Below are positions 28,773 to 39,121 of a DNA stretch of 64,000 nt, piece by piece (within the stretch, counting starts at the first letter, position 1; each line of letters begins with the position of its first letter). Source of the stretch: Dehalococcoidia bacterium. GTDB taxonomy: Bacteria > Chloroflexota > Dehalococcoidia > Tepidiformales > Tepidiformaceae. The stretch is taken from NCBI GenBank assembly GCA_020850615.1, contig JADZEI010000028.1, positions 1-64,000 on the forward strand, given 5' to 3'. The translations under genes were made by a program, and so were the position numbers. The notes under the pieces were generated by a model. That model saw only the letters and a program-made list of their open reading frames with translations, was not told the origin of the DNA and did no database searches.

Positions 28773-29225
28773 TTACTCCTTTGCTGGTGAGCCCGCCTGC
28801 GCGAGCGCGTCTTCGAGGACTTTCACGCCGAGCAGCGCGCACTTCACGCGGACCGGGAACTTCGCCACGCCCTCCAGCGCTTCCAGGTCCCCGAGGTCCG
28901 GCCCCGGCGCCACCGACTCGGTCAGCATCGCCTTGAACTGGCCCGAAATCGCGTGCGCGTCCGCCGTCGAGCGGCCCTTCACCTGCTCGCTCAACATCGA
29001 GACGCTCGACTGGCTGATCGAGCATCCCTGCCCGCGGAACCGGATGTCCGCGATCTGCCCGCCGTCCACCCGCAGGTCAATCGCGATCTCGTCGCCGCAC
29101 ACCGGGTTCAGGCCCTCTGCCCGCTGCGTCGCGTCGGGGAGCTCCCCGCGGTTCCGCGGCTTCTTCGCGTGGTCGAGGATGATCTCACGGTAGAGGTCGT
29201 CGAACTGCGGCTCAGCTATCGCCAT
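28773..29225 (-). CDS. sufU: SufU Fe-S scaffold/sulfurtransferase
   Basis: This 150-residue SufU protein accepts sulfur from SufS. Its three zinc/sulfur cysteines are at 43 (NPVCGDE), 68 (GQGCSIS) and 129 (RVKCALLG), and the SufU-specific insertion between the second and third is present. I use the ATG at 29225; an upstream TTG at 29231 is the alternative. It overlaps the end of sufS by 14 nt, indicating coupling in the same order found in many Gram-positives. Confidence 0.93.
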   Translation of the reverse strand: MAIAEPQFDDLYREIILDHAKKPRNRGELPDATQRAEGLNPVCGDEIAIDLRVDGGQIADIRFRGQGCSISQSSVSMLSEQVKGRSTADAHAISGQFKAMLTESVAPGPDLGDLEALEGVAKFPVRVKCALLGVKVLEDALAQAGSPAKE

Positions 29226-30453
29226 CTGCAAACACCCGCCGGGCGTGCTCGATCGATTCGACGAGCGCGTCCACTTCTTCCGGAAGATTGTAGACGTAGA
29301 AGCTGGCCCGGTTCGTTGCGGATACCTGTAGCCGGCGCATCAGCAGCTGCGCGCAGTGGTGCCCCGCCCGGATCGCCACCCCGTGACCGTCCGCGATCGT
29401 GCTCATGTCGTGCGGGTGCACGCCATCGACCGCAAAGCTCACCGCACCGCCGCGATGCTCGACGTCCATTGGCCCGTGCAGCGACACCCCCGGGATCCGC
29501 AGGAGCGTGTCCATCGCGTACGCCGTGATCGCCTTCTCGTGCTCCCGCACGTTGGCCATCCCCAGCCCGCCGAGGTAATCGATGGCCGCGCCGAACGCGA
29601 TCACGTCCGCGATGTTCGGCGTGCCCGCCTCGAACTTGTGCGGGACGTCGGCCCAGGTCGAGTGCTCCTGGCGCACCAGCGAGATCATCTCGCCGCCGCC
29701 GAGGAACGGGTCCATCTCCTCCAGCAACGAGTGCCGCGCCCACAGGACGCCGACGCCGGTCGGGCCGAGCATCTTGTGCGACGAAAGCGCGAAGAAGTCC
29801 ACCCCGAGCGCGGCCACGTCCACCGGCAGATGCGGCGCGCTCTGCGCCCCATCCGCCAGCACCAGCGCGCCCGCGCTGTGGGCGATGGCCGCGATATCCG
29901 CCACCGGATTGATCGTCCCGAGCACGTTCGAGGCGTGCACCACCGACACCAGCTTCGTCCGCGGGCCCACCAGCTCCCGGAGATGGTCGAGGTCCACCTC
30001 GCCGCCCGGCGTGAGCCCGACGTACCGCAACACCGCACCCTTGCGCCGCGCCAGCAGCTGCCAGGGCACGATGTTCGAATGGTGCTCCATCAGCGTGAGC
30101 ACCACCTCGTCGCCTTCGCCCACGTGCATGTCCGCCCATGCCCGCGCCACGAGGTTGATCGACTCGGTCGCGTTCCGCGTGAACACGATCTCTTCGGGCC
30201 GGCCGGCACCGATGTGCGCCGCGACCTTGCCCCGCACCGCCTCGTACTGCTCCGTCGCCTGCTGCGCGAGCGTGTGGATGCCGCGGTGGATATTCGCGTT
30301 CGTCGTCTCGTAGTACCGGACGAGCGCGTCGATCACCTGCCGCGGCTTCTGCGTCGTCGCCGCGTTGTCGAGATACACGAGTGGGCGCCCGTTGACCGTC
30401 TGCGCGAGGATGGGGAAGTCCTCACGGATCCGGGCGGCGTCGAACATGCCCAT
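29212..30453 (-). CDS. sufS: SufS cysteine desulfurase
   Basis: This 413-residue PLP enzyme releases sulfur from cysteine as a persulfide. The PLP lysine is Lys227 (ALSSHKMLGPTG) and the persulfide Cys is Cys367 (RAGHHCAQLL), both intact. The group II cysteine desulfurase pattern and its place between sufD and sufU confirm the role. It precedes sufU with a 14-nt overlap. Confidence 0.95.
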   Translation of the reverse strand: MGMFDAARIREDFPILAQTVNGRPLVYLDNAATTQKPRQVIDALVRYYETTNANIHRGIHTLAQQATEQYEAVRGKVAAHIGAGRPEEIVFTRNATESINLVARAWADMHVGEGDEVVLTLMEHHSNIVPWQLLARRKGAVLRYVGLTPGGEVDLDHLRELVGPRTKLVSVVHASNVLGTINPVADIAAIAHSAGALVLADGAQSAPHLPVDVAALGVDFFALSSHKMLGPTGVGVLWARHSLLEEMDPFLGGGEMISLVRQEHSTWADVPHKFEAGTPNIADVIAFGAAIDYLGGLGMANVREHEKAITAYAMDTLLRIPGVSLHGPMDVEHRGGAVSFAVDGVHPHDMSTIADGHGVAIRAGHHCAQLLMRRLQVSATNRASFYVYNLPEEVDALVESIEHARRVFADGDS

Positions 30454-30488
30454 GCCGTCCCCCTTCAGCGGCGTCCTCGCCGCGTGAG

Positions 30489-31778
30489 TTAGATGTCCTC
30501 GCCGAGCCCCACGCCGAGCTCGGCCGCCACCTCGTCCCGCAGCGCGGGGTCGGGGATGCGGTCGATCACCTGGCTCAGGAACCCGGCGACCAGCAGCCGT
30601 TCGGCCACCGCGTGGGGGAGCGCACGGGCCTCGAGATAGTACAGCTGCTCTTCGTCCACCGGGCCCGCCGTCGCACCGTGGCTCGCCCGGATGATGTTGT
30701 TCGTCAGGATCTCGAGCACCGGGTCGCTGTCCGCCTTCGCTGTCTTGCTCAGCAGCAGGTTCCGGTTCTCCTGGTTCGCGTCCGCGTTCCGCGCTTCCAG
30801 CCCGACCCGCGTCATCCCGTAGTACACCGACCGCGACGAATCCCGGAGCGCGAACTTGAACAGCAGGTCGCTCCGTGTGTCCGCCGCGATGTGGTCCTGC
30901 GTCGTGTAGAAGTCCGCGTGCTGGTTGCCCTTCCCGACGCCCAGCCCGAGCAGCTCGCTCGAAGACCCGCGGCCCACCAGCGACGACTCGATGTGCGACT
31001 TCACGACCTGCCCGCCGGTTACCACCGAGAGGCTCACCACCGAGGCGTCCTTCCCGGTAACGGTCCGCTGCTCCGCGAACACGCGGGTGCCGTTGCCCCA
31101 GCGGTGCAGCGCCGTGTACCGCACTTCCGAACCCGGGCCCGGCAGGATCTCCACCGCCGGCAGCACGACGATGTCGCCATCCGCCGACCGGTACTCTTCG
31201 ATCACGCTGACCCGGCTGTTCGCCTCGGTCACGATCAGCGTGTGCGGCGCAGCCAGCTGCTTCTCCGCCGTCAACGTCCGCACAATCCGCACCGGCTCGC
31301 CGATCTCCGCGTCCTTCGTCGCGTGCACCAGGAGCCCGCCGCGCTCGAAGGCGTAGTGCAGCGCCGTCAGCCGGTTGCTCCCGGGCGCCACCGCCGTGCC
31401 CAGCCGCGCATCGATGATCGCCTGGGTCCGCGCGTCGCCGTTCCGCTCGAACGGCACCACGTCGAGGCCCTGCGCCCGGATCTCGACCGAGACCGTCTCG
31501 CCGTCCACCTGCCGCACGACACCGGCGTACGCGCCGTCGATCGCCGGCACCTCGGCGCCGCTACCGCCACTCACCGGCCGGTACTCGTCGAGCGCGAACC
31601 CGCGGATGTCCAGGTACTTCCACGGCCGCTCGCTCGGCGTCGGGACCCCGAGCTCGGACGCGAGTTGCGCCGCCCGGGCGCGCAACTCCGCCACCTTCGG
31701 GCTATCGTGCGCCGCTTCTCCCAGGGCGCGGCTCGCGGCCGCGTCGAGCGCGGTGTTCGCCGTCACAGCTGTGCTCAT
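30489..31778 (-). CDS. sufD: SufD Fe-S assembly scaffold subunit
   Basis: This 429-residue SufD has the typical beta-helix core and the SufB/SufD C-terminal block (ASHGATAGPVDEEQLYYLEARALPHAVAERLLVAGFLSQVIDRI). In SufB2C2D-type complexes it pairs with SufB on the SufC ATPase. It lies between sufB and sufS in the same direction. The His in ASHGA, one of the residues needed for cluster assembly at the SufB-SufD interface, is present. Confidence 0.95.
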   Translation of the reverse strand: MSTAVTANTALDAAASRALGEAAHDSPKVAELRARAAQLASELGVPTPSERPWKYLDIRGFALDEYRPVSGGSGAEVPAIDGAYAGVVRQVDGETVSVEIRAQGLDVVPFERNGDARTQAIIDARLGTAVAPGSNRLTALHYAFERGGLLVHATKDAEIGEPVRIVRTLTAEKQLAAPHTLIVTEANSRVSVIEEYRSADGDIVVLPAVEILPGPGSEVRYTALHRWGNGTRVFAEQRTVTGKDASVVSLSVVTGGQVVKSHIESSLVGRGSSSELLGLGVGKGNQHADFYTTQDHIAADTRSDLLFKFALRDSSRSVYYGMTRVGLEARNADANQENRNLLLSKTAKADSDPVLEILTNNIIRASHGATAGPVDEEQLYYLEARALPHAVAERLLVAGFLSQVIDRIPDPALRDEVAAELGVGLGEDI

Positions 31779-31850
31779 TCACCATCTCCACCGGCCACCC
31801 CGAACAGGGGCAGCCGCATCACATCGTCGTCGTCGCCGGTCAGCCTCGGC

Positions 31851-33257
31851 CTACCCGACCGCGCCTTCCATCTGCATCTCGATCAGGCGGTTCAGCTCGA
31901 CGGCGTACTCCATCGGCAGCTCCTTCACGATCGGCTCGACGAAGCCGTTCACGATCATCTTCGCCGCCGCTTCCTCGCTCAGCCCGCGGCTCATCAGGTA
32001 GAACAGCTGGTCCTCGCCGAGCTTCGAAACGTATGCCTCGTGCTGGATGTGCACGTCTGGCGCGTCCACTTCCATCGTCGGGTACGTGTCCGACCGCGAT
32101 GTCTCGTCGATCAGCAGCGCATCGCACCGCACGTTCGACTTCACGCCCTCGCAGCCCTCGTACACCTTCAACAGGCCGCGATAGCTCGTCCGCCCACCGT
32201 CCTTGCTCAGCGACTTTGAGATGATCGTCGAGGTCGTGTTCGAAGCCGCGTGCACGATCTTGCCGCCCGCGTCCTGGTGCTGCCCTTCGCCCGCGAACGC
32301 TAGCGAGAGGATCTCGCCGTGCGCCCCCGGCTCCATCAGGTACACCGACGGGTACTTCATCGTCAGCTTGGAACCGAGGTTGCCGTCGACCCACTCCATG
32401 ACCGCGTCCTGGTAGGCCACTGCCCGCTTCGTCACGAGGTTGTAGACGTTGTTCGACCAGTTCTGGATCGTCGTGTAGCGGACGCGCGCGCCCTTCTTGA
32501 TCACGATCTCGACCACCGCGCTATGCAGCGAGTCCGAGCTGTACACCGGCGCCGTGCAGCCCTCGACGTAGTGCACCTGGCTGCCTTCGTCCGCGATGAT
32601 CAGCGTGCGCTCGAACTGGCCCATGTTCTGCGTGTTGATCCGGAAGTACGCCTGCAGCGGGATGTCCACCTTCACGCCCTTCGGCACATAGATGAACGAA
32701 CCACCGGACCACACCGCGCTGTTCAGCGCCGCGAAGCGGTTGTCCCCGGGCGGCACCACCGTCCCGAAGTGCTCCTTGAAGATGTCCTCGTGCTCCTTGA
32801 GGCCCTGGTCCGTGCCGACGAAGATGACGCCGAGCTTCTCCAGGTCCTCCCGGATGTTGTGGTACACCACTTCCGAGTCGTACTGCGCGCCCACGCCCGC
32901 AAGGTACTTCTTCTCCGCCTCCGGGATGCCGAGCCGGTCGAACGTGTTCTTGATGTACTCCGGCACGTCCTCCCACGAGCGCTCGTCCCGGTCGGTCGCG
33001 CGCACGTAGTAGTGGATGTCGTCGAAGTCGATCTCGTTGAGCTGCTCGCTGCCCCACGGCGGGTCCTTCCGCTCGCGGAACAGGTCCAGCGAGCGATGCC
33101 GGAATGCGCGCATCCAGTCGGGCTCGCCCTTCATGCTCGACATCACGTCGATGAGCTCGTGGTTGATGCCCTTGTTCGCCTTGAAGAGCGCTTCCGCGTC
33201 GTCGTGGAAGCCCCACTTGTAGCCGTCTTCGCGGATCAGTTCCGCTGGTGTGGTCAT
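31851..33257 (-). CDS. sufB: SufB Fe-S scaffold
   Basis: This 468-residue SufB is the scaffold on which clusters are built. Markers are [34 protein letters not shown], the central beta-helix ([24 protein letters not shown] with a conserved Cys) and the C-terminal [25 protein letters not shown]. The ATG at 33257 has GGGAGGGAC upstream; the frame runs further but without coding character. It follows sufC by 16 nt. Confidence 0.96.
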
Positions 33258-33273
33258 GCTGTCCCTCCCTGGG

Positions 33274-34032
33274 TCAGGCTGTCGCCAGTGCGGCTTCGAT
33301 TTCGTCGTAGCCCGTCTCTTCGAGCTCGAGCGCCAGCTCCGGCCCGCCCGACCGCGCAATCCGTCCATCGATGAGCACGTGGACGAACTGTGGCTTGATG
33401 TAGTTCAGCAGGCGCTGGTAGTGCGTGATCAGCAGCAGCCCCATCTCCGGGTTCATCAGCGCGTTCACGCCTTCCGCCACCGTCCGCAGCGCGTCGATGT
33501 CCAGGCCCGAGTCCGTCTCGTCCAGCACCGCCATCGACGGCTGGAGCATCGCCATCTGGAGCATCTCGGCCCGCTTCTTCTCGCCGCCCGAGAAGCCGTC
33601 GTTCACATAACGCCGGGCGAACTCCTGGTCCATCTTCAGCAGGTCCATCTTGCTGAAGAGCAGCTCGCGGAACTCGCGGATCGGCACATCGCCGCCGCGC
33701 CGCGCGTTCACCGCCTGGCGCAGGAAGTTCACCATCGTCACCCCGGGGATAGCCACCGGATACTGGAACGCCAGGAACAGCCCAAGCCGCGCACGCTCGT
33801 CCGGCGCCATGTCGTTCAACGGCGTGCCCTTGAACAGGATCTCCCCGCCCGTCACGTCATACCGCGGGCTGCCCATCAACACGTTCGCCAGCGTGCTCTT
33901 GCCCGAACCGTTCGGGCCCATGATCGCATGCACTTCGCCGGCATTGATCGACAGTGAAAGGCCCTTCAGGATCTCCTTGCCGTCGATGTTGGCGTGCAGG
34001 TCGCGGATTTCCAACAGCGGTGCGCTGGTCAT
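33274..34032 (-). CDS. sufC: SufC ATPase
   Basis: This 252-residue ABC-type ATPase of the SUF complex has Walker [10 protein letters not shown] (39-47), the Q-loop near [12 protein letters not shown], signature FSGGEKKR and Walker [13 protein letters not shown], followed by the switch His in [10 protein letters not shown]. It is soluble and works with SufB and SufD. It starts 14 nt after sufR. Confidence 0.96.
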
Positions 34033-34046
34033 ACGGTTCGTTTCTC

Positions 34047-34676
34047 CTAGTTCACGTCAATTGTGTCGTTGGGTGCGCGGTCCGTGCGCACGATGTACTC
34101 GCATACCGGCGCCCCATCGACGATCCGGTGGACTTGTTCAACGTCTTGCCCGAGCAACAGCTCGATCGCCTTGCGGTCGCTTTCGCAGGGCAGGTTCGAA
34201 ATCTCGGCCGCCTTCCGGTAGGGGCAGCAGCCGTTCACCAGGTGGATCGCCTCCCCCTCCCGGTGCCACCGCTCCAGGATCCCCTCCTGGCGCAGGCTCT
34301 CGGTCACCTGGATGACGCGCAGCTCCGGCGGGATGTCGGCCAGCTCGTGGCGGTGCTTCGACGCGACTGATTCCGCCATCCGACCCGAAACCTCGGCCAC
34401 CACGTCCTGCCGCTCCGAAAGACCCTCGAGCATCCGCTCCAGGAGCCCCGTGTAGCCCGTGGCGCCCATCGCCCGCTCCGTGGGGTAATAGGCGTGGAAC
34501 GGCCGCCCGGTGTGCTGCCGTACGCTCCGCACGTCCACCAGACCATCGGCGCGAAGGTTGTCGAGGTGCCGCCGGACCGCCGCCGCGGTTATCCCCAGCT
34601 CCTCTGCCAGCTCTTCGACGCGCACTTCGCGCCGTTCTACGATGAGCTCAAGCACGCGGTCACGAGTCCCTTGCAT
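34047..34676 (-). CDS. sufR: SufR-like Fe-S-sensing repressor
   Basis: This 209-residue protein has an N-terminal winged helix-turn-helix ([22 protein letters not shown], about 20-45) and a C-terminal cluster domain with Cys151, Cys164 and Cys192 (spacing X12 and X27) plus Cys150. This matches the cysteine pattern of the cyanobacterial SufR group, which represses suf operons when loaded with a 4Fe-4S cluster. It is the first gene of the suf operon and overlaps its own presumed operator region at 34720-34735, so autoregulation is likely. Confidence 0.9.
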
Positions 34677-34754: not shown

Positions 34755-35720
34755 CTATCGGCGCTCTCGATGCCGCCCGCCAGCCGCGACCGCGGGCCGC
34801 GCCGCTACCGCCGCCGGCGGAACAACCGGAGATGCCTCCCGCCCGGGCGACACTTCCGGGTGCCGCAGCGCCCGGATGAACTCCGCCCCGAGCAGCAGGA
34901 TCGACGCGTTGATGAACATCCAGAACAGGAAACCCAACGCCGTCCCGAACCCGGCGTAGATCGCCGTGTCGCTTTCGAAGGGCAGGTTCGCCAGCACGTA
35001 CGCGTAGCCGTTCTTCGCCACCTCGAACATCAGCGTCGCCGCCGCTGCGCCGGTCAGCGCCTCCGGCCAGCGCGGGCGCACGCTCGGCACGTAGCGGTAC
35101 AGCAGCGCGAACATCGCGTACGAAACCAGCGCCGGCAACACGTAGCCCGTGACCCGCAGGGCCGCGTTCTCGTGCGGCTTGAACGGCCCCAGCTCGGCGA
35201 GCCGGTCCACCACCTGCTGCACCGACGCCGTGAGCAACAGCGAGATGAGGATGAGCACACCAAGGCTCGGGATCAGCCCCAGGTCCACCACCTTGCCGCG
35301 CCAGTACGGGCGCCGTTGCTGGCGGTGGCTCGCCGCGTTCAGCCCCCGCCGTACCGCCGCGAAAATCCCGCTCGCCGACCACACCAGCGCAATCGCACCG
35401 AACCCGAGGCTCGCCAGGCTCACCTGCTGCGCCCGCCGCACGATCTCGTCGACGCTCTCCCGCACCGAGGCCGATTCCTCCAGCGGCACCTGGTCGAACA
35501 CGAACTCGACGATCCGGTCGCGGTCCACCACCAGCCCGAACACGGACAGCACGATCAGCGCGAGCGGGACGACCGAGAAGATCGCGTAGTACGCGATCGC
35601 CGCGGCATACGTGCCGCAGCTGTCCTCCATGTAGAGGCCGATCGTCCGGGCGAGCACGCCAGCCGGCTTACGCACCGCCGGCGGCGTCTGCCCCCACAGC
35701 TCCCGCAATCGGCGCGGCAT
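34755..35720 (-). CDS. YihY/BrkB-family membrane protein
   Basis: This roughly 321-residue integral membrane protein has about six predicted helices and the family pattern (CGTYAAAIAYYAIFSVVPLALIVLSVFG, then VWSASGIFAAVRRGLN). Family roles are unsettled; it is not RNase BN as once annotated. I use the ATG at 35720 (GGAAGAG upstream) rather than the TTG at 35753; the start overlaps the 3' end of treT by about 53 nt. The C-terminus is a Pro/Ala/Arg-rich tail. Confidence 0.9.
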   Translation of the reverse strand: MPRRLRELWGQTPPAVRKPAGVLARTIGLYMEDSCGTYAAAIAYYAIFSVVPLALIVLSVFGLVVDRDRIVEFVFDQVPLEESASVRESVDEIVRRAQQVSLASLGFGAIALVWSASGIFAAVRRGLNAASHRQQRRPYWRGKVVDLGLIPSLGVLILISLLLTASVQQVVDRLAELGPFKPHENAALRVTGYVLPALVSYAMFALLYRYVPSVRPRWPEALTGAAAATLMFEVAKNGYAYVLANLPFESDTAIYAGFGTALGFLFWMFINASILLLGAEFIRALRHPEVSPGREASPVVPPAAVAARPAVAAGGRHRERR

Positions 35721-36987
35721 GCGCACTCTCTTCCGTCGCCGAGCCTTCGGCAACTTCCAGCATCATCCGCAGATAATCGTGCAGATACCGGGTGATGAGG
35801 AAGTGGTCGCGCACATGTTCGCGCCCCCGTTCGCCCATCCGGTTGCGCAGGTCCCGGTCGCGCAGCAGCTCCGCCAGCCGTTGCGCGCACTGCTGCGACG
35901 AGTCCACCAGGTAGCCACACTCGCCCTCGAGGATCTGCAGCGGGATGCCGCCGACGTTCCCGCCCACCACCGGCCGCCCCTTCCAGAGCGCCTCCGACAC
36001 CGTCAGCCCGAACCCTTCCCGCGTCGACTTCTGGATGACCACGTCCGATGCGTGCTGGAACGCGTTCACCTCCGCGTTTCCCACGCCGTTCATGTTCGTC
36101 AGGATCTTGATGTCCCAGTCCTCGCCGGCCCGGCGGATGACCTTTTCGTACCACTCCCAGCCTTCGGGGTCGTCGCTCGCCATCGACCCCACGAGGATGA
36201 GCTGCACGTCCGGGAACTCCGCCTTCACCTCGCGGTAGGCCGAGATGACCCCCAGCGGGTCCTTCCACGGGTCGAACCGCGAGACCTGCGTCAGGATCGG
36301 CCGGCTCGGGTCCACGCCGAACCGGTCGAGCACCGCCTTGACCTGCATCTCGCTGCACGGCTCGTTTTTGTGACTCAGTGGGTCAATGGCCGGCGGCGCG
36401 ATCTTCAGGTGCCGCTCCGGCACGCCCTGCCGCACGTACTGACGCATCGTCCAGATGCTCCCGTCGTACTCCTCCACGAACGGCCGCAGCATCTCCCAGG
36501 CCTGCTGCTGAGCGTCCGTCAAGTCGATGTGGCAGCGCCAGATGAAGTGCCCCTGCGGGTTCCGCCCCGAATCGCGCAGGATATACAGCAGCGGCGCCGG
36601 CTGCGGGTCGTGGACAATCACAAAGTCGTAATCCGACCAGTTCTCCGCGTTCAGCTTGTTCTGGTTCACCCAGATGTCCCGGTCCTGCGGCCGCCACGGG
36701 TGGTTCTTCCCCTGCAGCGCGTTGTGCATCGCTTTCGTCACGGTGAAGAACTCGTCGCTCCCCGTGAGCACCTTCCAGTCGCACTGCAGCCCCAGGTCCC
36801 GCATCAGCGGCACCATGCTCGTGAGGATCTCCGCGACACCGCCGCCATACGCCGTCGCGTTGATGTGCAGCACGCGCGCGCCGGCCAGCTTCGCCGCGTC
36901 TTCGCGGATAGCCTCGATCACGCCTTCGCGTACCGACTCGCGATACCGCTCCAGCTCACGCGGCGCAACGCCGACGGTGGTCAACAT
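35668..36987 (-). CDS. treT: Trehalose glycosyltransferring synthase (TreT)
   Basis: This 439-residue GT4 glycosyltransferase has the TreT blocks INATAYGGGVAEILTSMVPLMRDLGL, VTKAMHNALQG, WRCHIDLTDAQQ and the C-terminal REGFGLTVSEALWKG E-x7-E motif. The enzyme makes trehalose from NDP-glucose and glucose, giving an osmo- and thermoprotectant. The N-terminal HINATAYGGG segment is the donor-loop hallmark. GAGG lies 9 nt upstream of the ATG. It overlaps the YihY gene at its 3' end, suggesting a shared transcript. Confidence 0.93.
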   Translation of the reverse strand: MLTTVGVAPRELERYRESVREGVIEAIREDAAKLAGARVLHINATAYGGGVAEILTSMVPLMRDLGLQCDWKVLTGSDEFFTVTKAMHNALQGKNHPWRPQDRDIWVNQNKLNAENWSDYDFVIVHDPQPAPLLYILRDSGRNPQGHFIWRCHIDLTDAQQQAWEMLRPFVEEYDGSIWTMRQYVRQGVPERHLKIAPPAIDPLSHKNEPCSEMQVKAVLDRFGVDPSRPILTQVSRFDPWKDPLGVISAYREVKAEFPDVQLILVGSMASDDPEGWEWYEKVIRRAGEDWDIKILTNMNGVGNAEVNAFQHASDVVIQKSTREGFGLTVSEALWKGRPVVGGNVGGIPLQILEGECGYLVDSSQQCAQRLAELLRDRDLRNRMGERGREHVRDHFLITRYLHDYLRMMLEVAEGSATEESAHAAPIAGAVGADAAGGA

Positions 36988-37044: not shown

Positions 37045-38169
37045 TCAGTTACCGCCCTGCCCGGCGGCGAACGTAGCGAACTTGCAACCCGCTGCCGCCG
37101 CGATCGCCGCGTCCCACTGCGGCCCCACCACATCCCACCCGTACCCTGCCGCGGCCGTCCGGAAGGGCTCCGCCCCCGGTCGTGGCCCCTCCACCAGCGC
37201 CCGCAACTTCGCCCGGAAGTCCGGCTCAGAGTCGAACAGGCACATGTCGTGCAGCGCCGCGGGAACGAGCGCCGGGTAGTTCAGCGCTCGCGGTGCCAGC
37301 GGCACGCACCCCGCGTGCATCGCCTCCACCATCCCGACGCCGAAGAACTCATGGCGCGCCGTGCTCACGACGATGTCGGCGCCAGCGAGCAGCTCCAGGT
37401 ACCGCTCGCGCGTGGGCGCCATCCCCGCGTGTACTACCCGTGCCCCGAGCTCTGCCGGCAGCTCCACCAGCGCCGGGTGCGGGTTGGGCCCCGGGTCCCC
37501 GAGCAGCATCACCTCGAACGGCACCCCATCCTCGGCCAGCCACCGCAACGTCCGCGCGAACAGGTCCGGCGACTTGTCGAACTCCCAGCGCGATGTCCAC
37601 GCGATCACTGGCACCGCCTCCGCCGCGCGCGTGGGCCGCTCCGGCTCCGGCAGGTCCAGGCCCACCGGCAGCACCGCGCTCTTCGCCGCGATCGCATCGA
37701 TCGTCCCCGGCACGAGCCAGTTGTTCGGCTCCTCTGCCAGAGTCCGCAGCGCCCCGAGGAACTCCTGGAGGTGGAACGCCGAATTGAACGCCACCGCGTC
37801 CGCGACCAGCGCCGAGTGGTAGTTGATCGCCCCGAACCAGGAGTTCAGCTTTGTCCCGCGGATGCGCGGATAGGTGAACTGGTTCTCGTGGAAGTACACC
37901 ATCACCGGTGTCCCGGCGAACCGCCCGCGCGTCAGCGCCAGGAACAGCGGCACGTCCAGCATGTCAGTCGCGATCACCAGGTCGAACGGCCCGTCGAGCC
38001 CAGCCGCCTCGCCCGCCATCTCGATCGCCCCTCGCCGCATCCGCCGCCGCCACTCGCCCTCCGGCAGCGTCAGCAGCACCACTTCGTGGCGCGACGCCCG
38101 CACCAGCCCGTCCGTGAACGCGCGGTGGCTCCCGCCGTAGAACGGTTCGACGAACAACACGCGGGCCAT
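37045..38169 (-). CDS. DUF3524 GT4, tRNA-queuosine mannosyltransferase family
   Basis: This 374-residue GT4 protein has the DUF3524 N-terminal hallmarks VLFVEPFYGGSHRAFTDGLV, ATDMLDVPLF and MVYFHENQFTYPR, followed by GT4 donor motifs (ARHEFFGVGMVEAMHAG). Its closest studied relatives (GTDC1/QTMAN) transfer mannose to queuosine in tRNA-Asp. In a bacterium such a glycosyl-queuosine modification would be noteworthy. The alternative is a generic sugar transferase with a coincidentally similar N-terminus. No queuosine-synthesis gene is in this window. Confidence 0.85.
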   Translation of the reverse strand: MARVLFVEPFYGGSHRAFTDGLVRASRHEVVLLTLPEGEWRRRMRRGAIEMAGEAAGLDGPFDLVIATDMLDVPLFLALTRGRFAGTPVMVYFHENQFTYPRIRGTKLNSWFGAINYHSALVADAVAFNSAFHLQEFLGALRTLAEEPNNWLVPGTIDAIAAKSAVLPVGLDLPEPERPTRAAEAVPVIAWTSRWEFDKSPDLFARTLRWLAEDGVPFEVMLLGDPGPNPHPALVELPAELGARVVHAGMAPTRERYLELLAGADIVVSTARHEFFGVGMVEAMHAGCVPLAPRALNYPALVPAALHDMCLFDSEPDFRAKLRALVEGPRPGAEPFRTAAAGYGWDVVGPQWDAAIAAAAGCKFATFAAGQGGN

Positions 38170-38204: not shown

Positions 38205-38573
38205 CTAGAGGTGGCCCAGCTCCGCCAGCCGGTCAAGCGCCTCGTGCAGCTCCCGGTCGGCGTCATCGATCGCCTTGTACTGGCTCACCAGGTGCCCGCC
38301 CCATTTCTCCACCAGGTACCAGTCATCGTCGATGATGAAGTCCGGCCGTGGCTCCACGCGCGGGTCCTTGTCGAAGCACCCGTCGACCAGCTCGACCAGC
38401 CCGTGCAGCTCCACCACGCGTTCCACGTACTGCTGTCCGCCCGCCGACCACACGAACACGCCGTGCCCGGCTTCGCGCAGCCGCCGCATCGCATCGTGCG
38501 CACCCGGCCGGAGCGCGTTGAACTCCGCCGTCGGCAGCACCAGCGTGTGGTCCACGTCGAAGAAGATGTTCAC
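38205..38573 (-). CDS. Small HAD-family hydrolase-like protein
   Basis: This 122-residue protein begins MNIFFDVDHTLVL, the HAD nucleophile motif, and has VFVWSAGG (motif II-like) and DFIIDDDWYLVEKWGG (motif IV-like). The size is at the low end, without a cap domain. It starts at a GTG 4 nt after the preceding gene's stop. It could be a phosphatase or a non-catalytic HAD. It is probably co-transcribed with the gene at 38577. Confidence 0.78.
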   Translation of the reverse strand: MNIFFDVDHTLVLPTAEFNALRPGAHDAMRRLREAGHGVFVWSAGGQQYVERVVELHGLVELVDGCFDKDPRVEPRPDFIIDDDWYLVEKWGGHLVSQYKAIDDADRELHEALDRLAELGHL

Positions 38574-38576
38574 GCC

Positions 38577-39011
38577 CTACGCCTCCGCGACGTCCAGGCC
38601 CCACACCGGCCGGAAGCGCCACGTGCGGATGCCCTTCACCTTGATCCCGTGCTTCTTCAGGAGCGCCCGCGTCTCCGGCACGCACCCGGAGGGCACGTAC
38701 AGGTAGAGGTCCCCGCACTTCGAATACGGCAGCCACTGCTCGACCGCCGACTCGTCGTTGATGCTGTCCGCCGTCTCGACCTCGGCCATCATCTTCAGCC
38801 AGACGCCCGGCCGCCGCACGACGACGATGTCCGGGTAGAGCGGCTTCCCGTTGTGCTCGCCCACGCTCATCCGCGGCGTTGGCTCATTGACCAACGTCTC
38901 GAGGTCGGCGAACTCGTCGTTCGGGAACGGGAACTTCACTTTCGCGATTTCGGCTACCGTGCCGAGATGTCGCTGGTCACGCAGGTACTTCAGGACCACG
39001 CCGTACCTCAC
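38577..39011 (-). CDS. PD-(D/E)XK-like protein of unknown function
   Basis: This 144-residue protein has no name I recognise. YPDIVVVRRPGVWLKMMAEVETADSI has the PD...ExE arrangement seen in PD-(D/E)XK folds (compare Uma2), followed by EQWLPYSKCGDLYLYVP and a helix-turn RALLKKHGIKVKGIRTWRF. The start (GTG at 39011) is tentative: no ribosome-binding site is seen but a TAGGAT hexamer precedes it. It is followed at once by the small HAD gene, 3 nt after its stop. Confidence 0.65.
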   Translation of the reverse strand: MRYGVVLKYLRDQRHLGTVAEIAKVKFPFPNDEFADLETLVNEPTPRMSVGEHNGKPLYPDIVVVRRPGVWLKMMAEVETADSINDESAVEQWLPYSKCGDLYLYVPSGCVPETRALLKKHGIKVKGIRTWRFRPVWGLDVAEA

Positions 39012-39121
39012 CGGTGCGCATTTTGGCTGCTCGCAAATCCTACCCGAACCGCGCCCAACCGGCGAACAGAAGGGGCGCCGTAGCGCCCCCTCCGCGTCGA
39101 TTCCCTCGTGCCGGCCCTGAC

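Follow-up and report, generated by a model that had tools for sequence, protein, structure and literature searches.

A QTMAN-family gene and its neighbourhood

Analysis of the window (the whole stretch of 64,000 nucleotides studied here) confirmed the noted open reading frame at exactly 37045–38169, on the minus strand; it begins with ATG, comprises 374 codons, and has one stop. This gene is real, far beyond chance. The first-pass annotation had assigned to it the DUF3524 hallmarks EPFYGGSH, HENQFTYP, and TDMLD, fused to a GT4 donor domain as in animal QTMAN (GTDC1), the enzyme that transfers alpha-mannose onto the allylic 3-hydroxyl of queuosine-34 (Q34) in tRNA-Asp. All three motifs were located (residues 8–15, 94–101, and 68–72, respectively), and the QTMAN_N domain matched over the entire profile (1–168 of 168; 167.2 bits, E 3.6e-49, cut-off 25 bits). 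The fusion was also confirmed, with the donor half scoring 30.8 bits to Glyco_trans_1_4 (PF13692; cut-off 27) and having the EX7E motif of GT4 enzymes (E274 and E282). The positions of these features are listed in Table 1.

Table 1. Features at and around the QTMAN homologue (window coordinates).
Feature	Position	Strand	Basis
Predicted Q-tRNA (mannosyl)transferase, QTMAN_N + GT4, 374 aa	37045..38169	-	Pfam, alignment, AF2 model, Foldseek
QTMAN_N (PF12038, formerly DUF3524), acceptor half of GT-B fold	37657..38163	-	Pfam
GT4 donor half, residues 187–323	37201..37611	-	Pfam, alignment
HAD-like small protein, directly upstream	38205..38573	-	Domain match; relatives at same position in the group's loci
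TreT-like GT4 (trehalose transferase type), directly downstream	35668..36987	-	TreT_GT1, 174.8 bits
Open frame between PEPCK and the HAD-like gene	38577..39119	-	C-terminal part protein-like
Genes reading as SUF iron-sulphur cluster assembly	29212..34676	-
SufR-like regulator	34047..34676		47 bits to TIGR02702, below its cut-off

The QTMAN_N Pfam family already includes bacterial sequences. In our family alignment, whose members come from several phyla and are 27–63% identical to the window protein, 55 of 55 aligned members matched both QTMAN_N and a GT4 model. There were 17 invariant columns, with S14, H15, R43, P88, H94, E95, Q97, and P101 invariant in the QTMAN_N half; in the donor half, W191, R194, and K199 were singled out together with the EX7E glutamates. 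An AF2 model built from the 55-sequence alignment (pLDDT 95.1, pTM 0.92) confidently predicts a GT-B fold. The best Foldseek matches in the PDB were to GT-B/GT4-like enzymes, including glycogen synthase, GlgM, MshA, sucrose-phosphate synthase, BshA, TreT, and PimA, with TM about 0.6–0.7 for most and 10–18% identity in the structure alignments. PimA with GDP-Man was among the best of these, and PimA was also among the better PDB matches by sequence profile (E about 1e-8). A sequence search of PDB structures found no solved close relative covering the whole protein.

The HAD-like gene lies 35 bp upstream and the TreT-like gene 57 bp downstream of the QTMAN homologue, all on one strand, and the adjoining TreT reported in the annotation is confirmed. 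The ORF families of both neighbours recur in 12/12 loci of the same bacterial group (the window plus 11), where neighbours were identified by cluster membership and position, not by scanning every copy for domains. Outside this group, the adjacent genes include ThiI, oxaloacetate decarboxylase beta, a DEAD helicase, UDP-glucose/GDP-mannose dehydrogenase, DHQ synthase, and MatE, among others, and in two Actinomycetota loci (L048 and L121) the homologue directly follows thiI, a tRNA-modification gene. As its neighbours vary across lineages, the gene behaves as a stand-alone housekeeping gene rather than as part of a polysaccharide cluster. Adjacency to tgt or queA was not seen in the coordinates of the surveyed carrier genomes, a point against a role in Q modification. 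No tandem repeats were found near the gene.

The nearest named relatives that have the gene are Dehalococcoidia and Tepidiforma (Chloroflexota), whose proteins are 55–64% identical to that of the window and group with it in a well-supported clade in a tree of 75 proteins. A mobile origin was considered and is unsupported, since the phage and plasmid matches were weak, covered the donor half only (about 29–30% identity), and no relative was found on a viral contig.

Queuosine genes in the same genome and in other carriers

The genome, a 95-contig assembly of 4.17 Mb from a Chloroflexota bacterium near Tepidiforma, has the window as its contig C28. The annotation had proposed a search for tgt, queA, and queG elsewhere in the genome, and all were present over their cut-offs: tgt on contig C67 (468 bits, cut-off 306.75), queA on C45 (435 bits to PRK00147, cut-off 324; 379 bits to TIGR00113), and queG on C85 (289 bits, cut-off 200). 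The genome also has queF, on C21 (104 bits, cut-off 27.3). A genome without queuosine-modification genes, which had been named as grounds for abandoning the assignment, is thus not what was found. GluQRS (YadB) is the bacterial glutamyl-queuosine synthetase, which decorates the Q cyclopentene ring on tRNA-Asp; its best match in the genome (229 bits) fell below the equivalog cut-off of 276.7, and the 543-aa frame concerned looks like GltX. As a separate observation, TGTs of the window's family (L093, which is the G000 TGT, and L094, L095, L106, and L107 of f1) read LDHVV or LDHVL where most bacterial TGTs have DEC, with GGLxVGE kept.

Among 400 Chloroflexota genomes, a TGT match was present in 46/47 carriers of the QTMAN homologue versus 269/353 non-carriers (Fisher 9e-5, shared ancestry ignored), and tgt exceeded the curated cut-off in 45/47 versus 265/353 (Fisher 4e-4, on the same basis). 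The sole carrier with no TGT match (G328) has queA, another (G370) has a lower-scoring TGT-like protein only, and two carriers of family f80 (G198 and G261) match QTMAN_N weakly, at 43–48 bits. The 356 Actinomycetota genomes included 19 carriers, which we compared with 61 sampled non-carriers. In that phylum, all 19 carriers had queA over the cut-off, versus 31/61 non-carriers (Fisher 2.6e-5), and all 19 had tgt, versus 35/61 (Fisher 1.6e-4); these p-values, too, take no account of common descent and are a guide only. A further 33 carriers came from sequence searches: 32 had queA over the cut-off, the remaining one (G419) had a partial queA match, and 29 had a tgt match.

Two points weigh against the association. 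tgt is common regardless of the gene, being present in 315 of the 400 Chloroflexota, and in families f48 and f56 it occurs without either queA or the QTMAN homologue; these families are possible queuine salvagers with no Q glycosylation. That G010 (f40) has tgt and lacks the homologue indicates that gene loss happens too. Overall, the gene appears to go with Q in tRNA, be it synthesized or salvaged.

TGT pockets of carriers without queA

Among the 47 carriers in Chloroflexota, 33 (families f40, f60, f70, and f73) had neither queA nor queG over cut-offs. No full-strength QueF was found among the 17 queA-less carriers examined, in which matches were 22–28 bits or absent, with three just above the lenient cut-off. 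We read the QueF-like frames in these genomes (220–290 aa) as T-fold relatives and not QueF. The TGT pocket was GG-SLG in all 15 TGTs examined from queA-less carriers, versus GG[LYV]xVGE in every queA-containing genome examined. Queuine-salvaging TGTs typically have GG[LS][AS]G and preQ1-type enzymes GGLAVG (Quaiyum et al. 2024, PMC11570991). Relative to the latter, GG-SLG is one residue shorter and has lost the valine, which, together with the missing full-strength QueF, makes preQ1-tRNA unlikely in these carriers. GG-SLG differs from the published salvage pattern at one place, so queuine use remains a prediction, though from their sequences these carriers likely do use salvaged queuine. If so, they would import queuine, and the presence of the homologue would track Q of either origin. 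A simple rule that a genome without queA has no Q function was dropped once these pockets were read. Several Chloroflexota carriers also have a second TGT-like protein (L088, L089, L090, L091, and L092), of about 270–316 bits, whose GGWPLD pocket is neither preQ1-type nor queuine-type.

Proposed function and comparison with known systems

We hypothesize that the gene encodes a retaining GT-B/GT4 enzyme of the QTMAN (GTDC1) family that would glycosylate queuosine-34 in tRNAs with GUN anticodons. preQ1 would be made via QueF, inserted by TGT, and converted to Q by QueA and QueG, and the glycosyltransferase would then act on the Q-tRNA. Its donor would most likely be GDP-mannose, giving an alpha-mannose on a hydroxyl of the Q cyclopentene ring. 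The family, fold, catalytic motif, Q genes of the same genome, co-occurrence with Q genes in two phyla, and queuine-like TGT pocket of queA-less carriers are established, and we consider it likely that the enzyme acts on Q in tRNA. The best explanation overall, which we hold with reasonable though lesser confidence, is a bacterial QTMAN-family Q-tRNA glycosyltransferase, probably a mannosyltransferase. That it both acts on Q in tRNA and transfers mannose is probable, but less securely so. The first-pass annotation had linked the gene to Q-tRNA by homology only; the co-occurrence survey supports that acceptor, whereas the prediction of mannose, of tRNA-Asp, and of the hydroxyl comes from homology alone.

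An enzyme that glycosylates Q with a sugar, tRNA, or hydroxyl unlike those of animal QTMAN (e.g., glucosyl-Q, or Q in tRNA-Tyr, His, or Asn) seems rather unlikely to us. Such a difference would fit the identity of only 27–63% between members and the window protein, as well as the gammaproteobacterial members, which form a distant clade in the 75-protein tree, have D rather than E at the start of EX7E, and in four genomes coexist with GluQRS, so that specificity may differ there. Animals themselves vary, as manQ was found on tRNA-Tyr in Aedes aegypti (PMC11705514). However, the invariant residues run family-wide, and direct evidence for another sugar is absent.

We regard as unlikely that the protein is a small-molecule or polysaccharide GT4 (trehalose, glycolipid, or capsule) paired with the TreT-like protein and a HAD-like phosphatase, with the Q link a false lead. 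The constant company of these two genes in the window's own lineage counts against our assignment, as it could point to sugar metabolism, and the fold resembles those of TreT, GlgM, and MshA. Other lineages have different neighbours, though, and this explanation accounts neither for the tgt co-occurrence seen in two phyla nor for the queuine-like TGT pockets of queA-less carriers. Glycosylation of a different tRNA or nucleotide substrate of TGT-bearing cells is very improbable; the 33 Chloroflexota carriers that lack queA, and so may lack Q, would allow it, but the queuine-like TGTs read from them and the missing full-strength QueF argue against it.

The presence of a same-family enzyme and key queuosine genes in one genome suggests that, with Q as the acceptor, bacteria, like animals, may add a sugar to their tRNAs. 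More tentatively, mannosyl-type Q may be old and widespread in bacteria, among them Chloroflexota, Actinomycetota, and Desulfobacterales, and certain Chloroflexota without queA may, like animals, import queuine and glycosylate it once a queuine-type TGT has inserted it. Glycosylated queuosine has been described in animals, and in the open-licence literature, outside of which most subscription papers and preprints lie, we found no bacterial case and no published bacterial enzyme of the QTMAN kind. What is new here is that the gene and Q go together in more than one phylum and that some carriers are predicted to use queuine. If bacteria do make glycosylated Q, then the enzyme predates animals or has moved between domains, the role of the Q sugar in decoding becomes open to study in bacteria, and the queA-less carriers would parallel, among bacteria, the way in which animals use queuine.

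The window protein shares the GT-B fold and EX7E motif with PimA, which uses GDP-mannose, and with MshA, GlgM, and TreT, but these are not QTMAN_N proteins and align with it at only the 10–18% identity noted above. Like the protein predicted here, GluQRS is a bacterial enzyme that decorates the Q ring, although its fold and substrate are unrelated, and it is below the cut-off in the window's genome. The closest likeness in architecture and predicted acceptor is to animal QTMAN, a full-length QTMAN_N fused to a GT4 donor domain and predicted in the window protein to act on tRNA Q, a likeness based on domain matches. The window enzyme differs in that it belongs to a bacterium with the genes to make Q.
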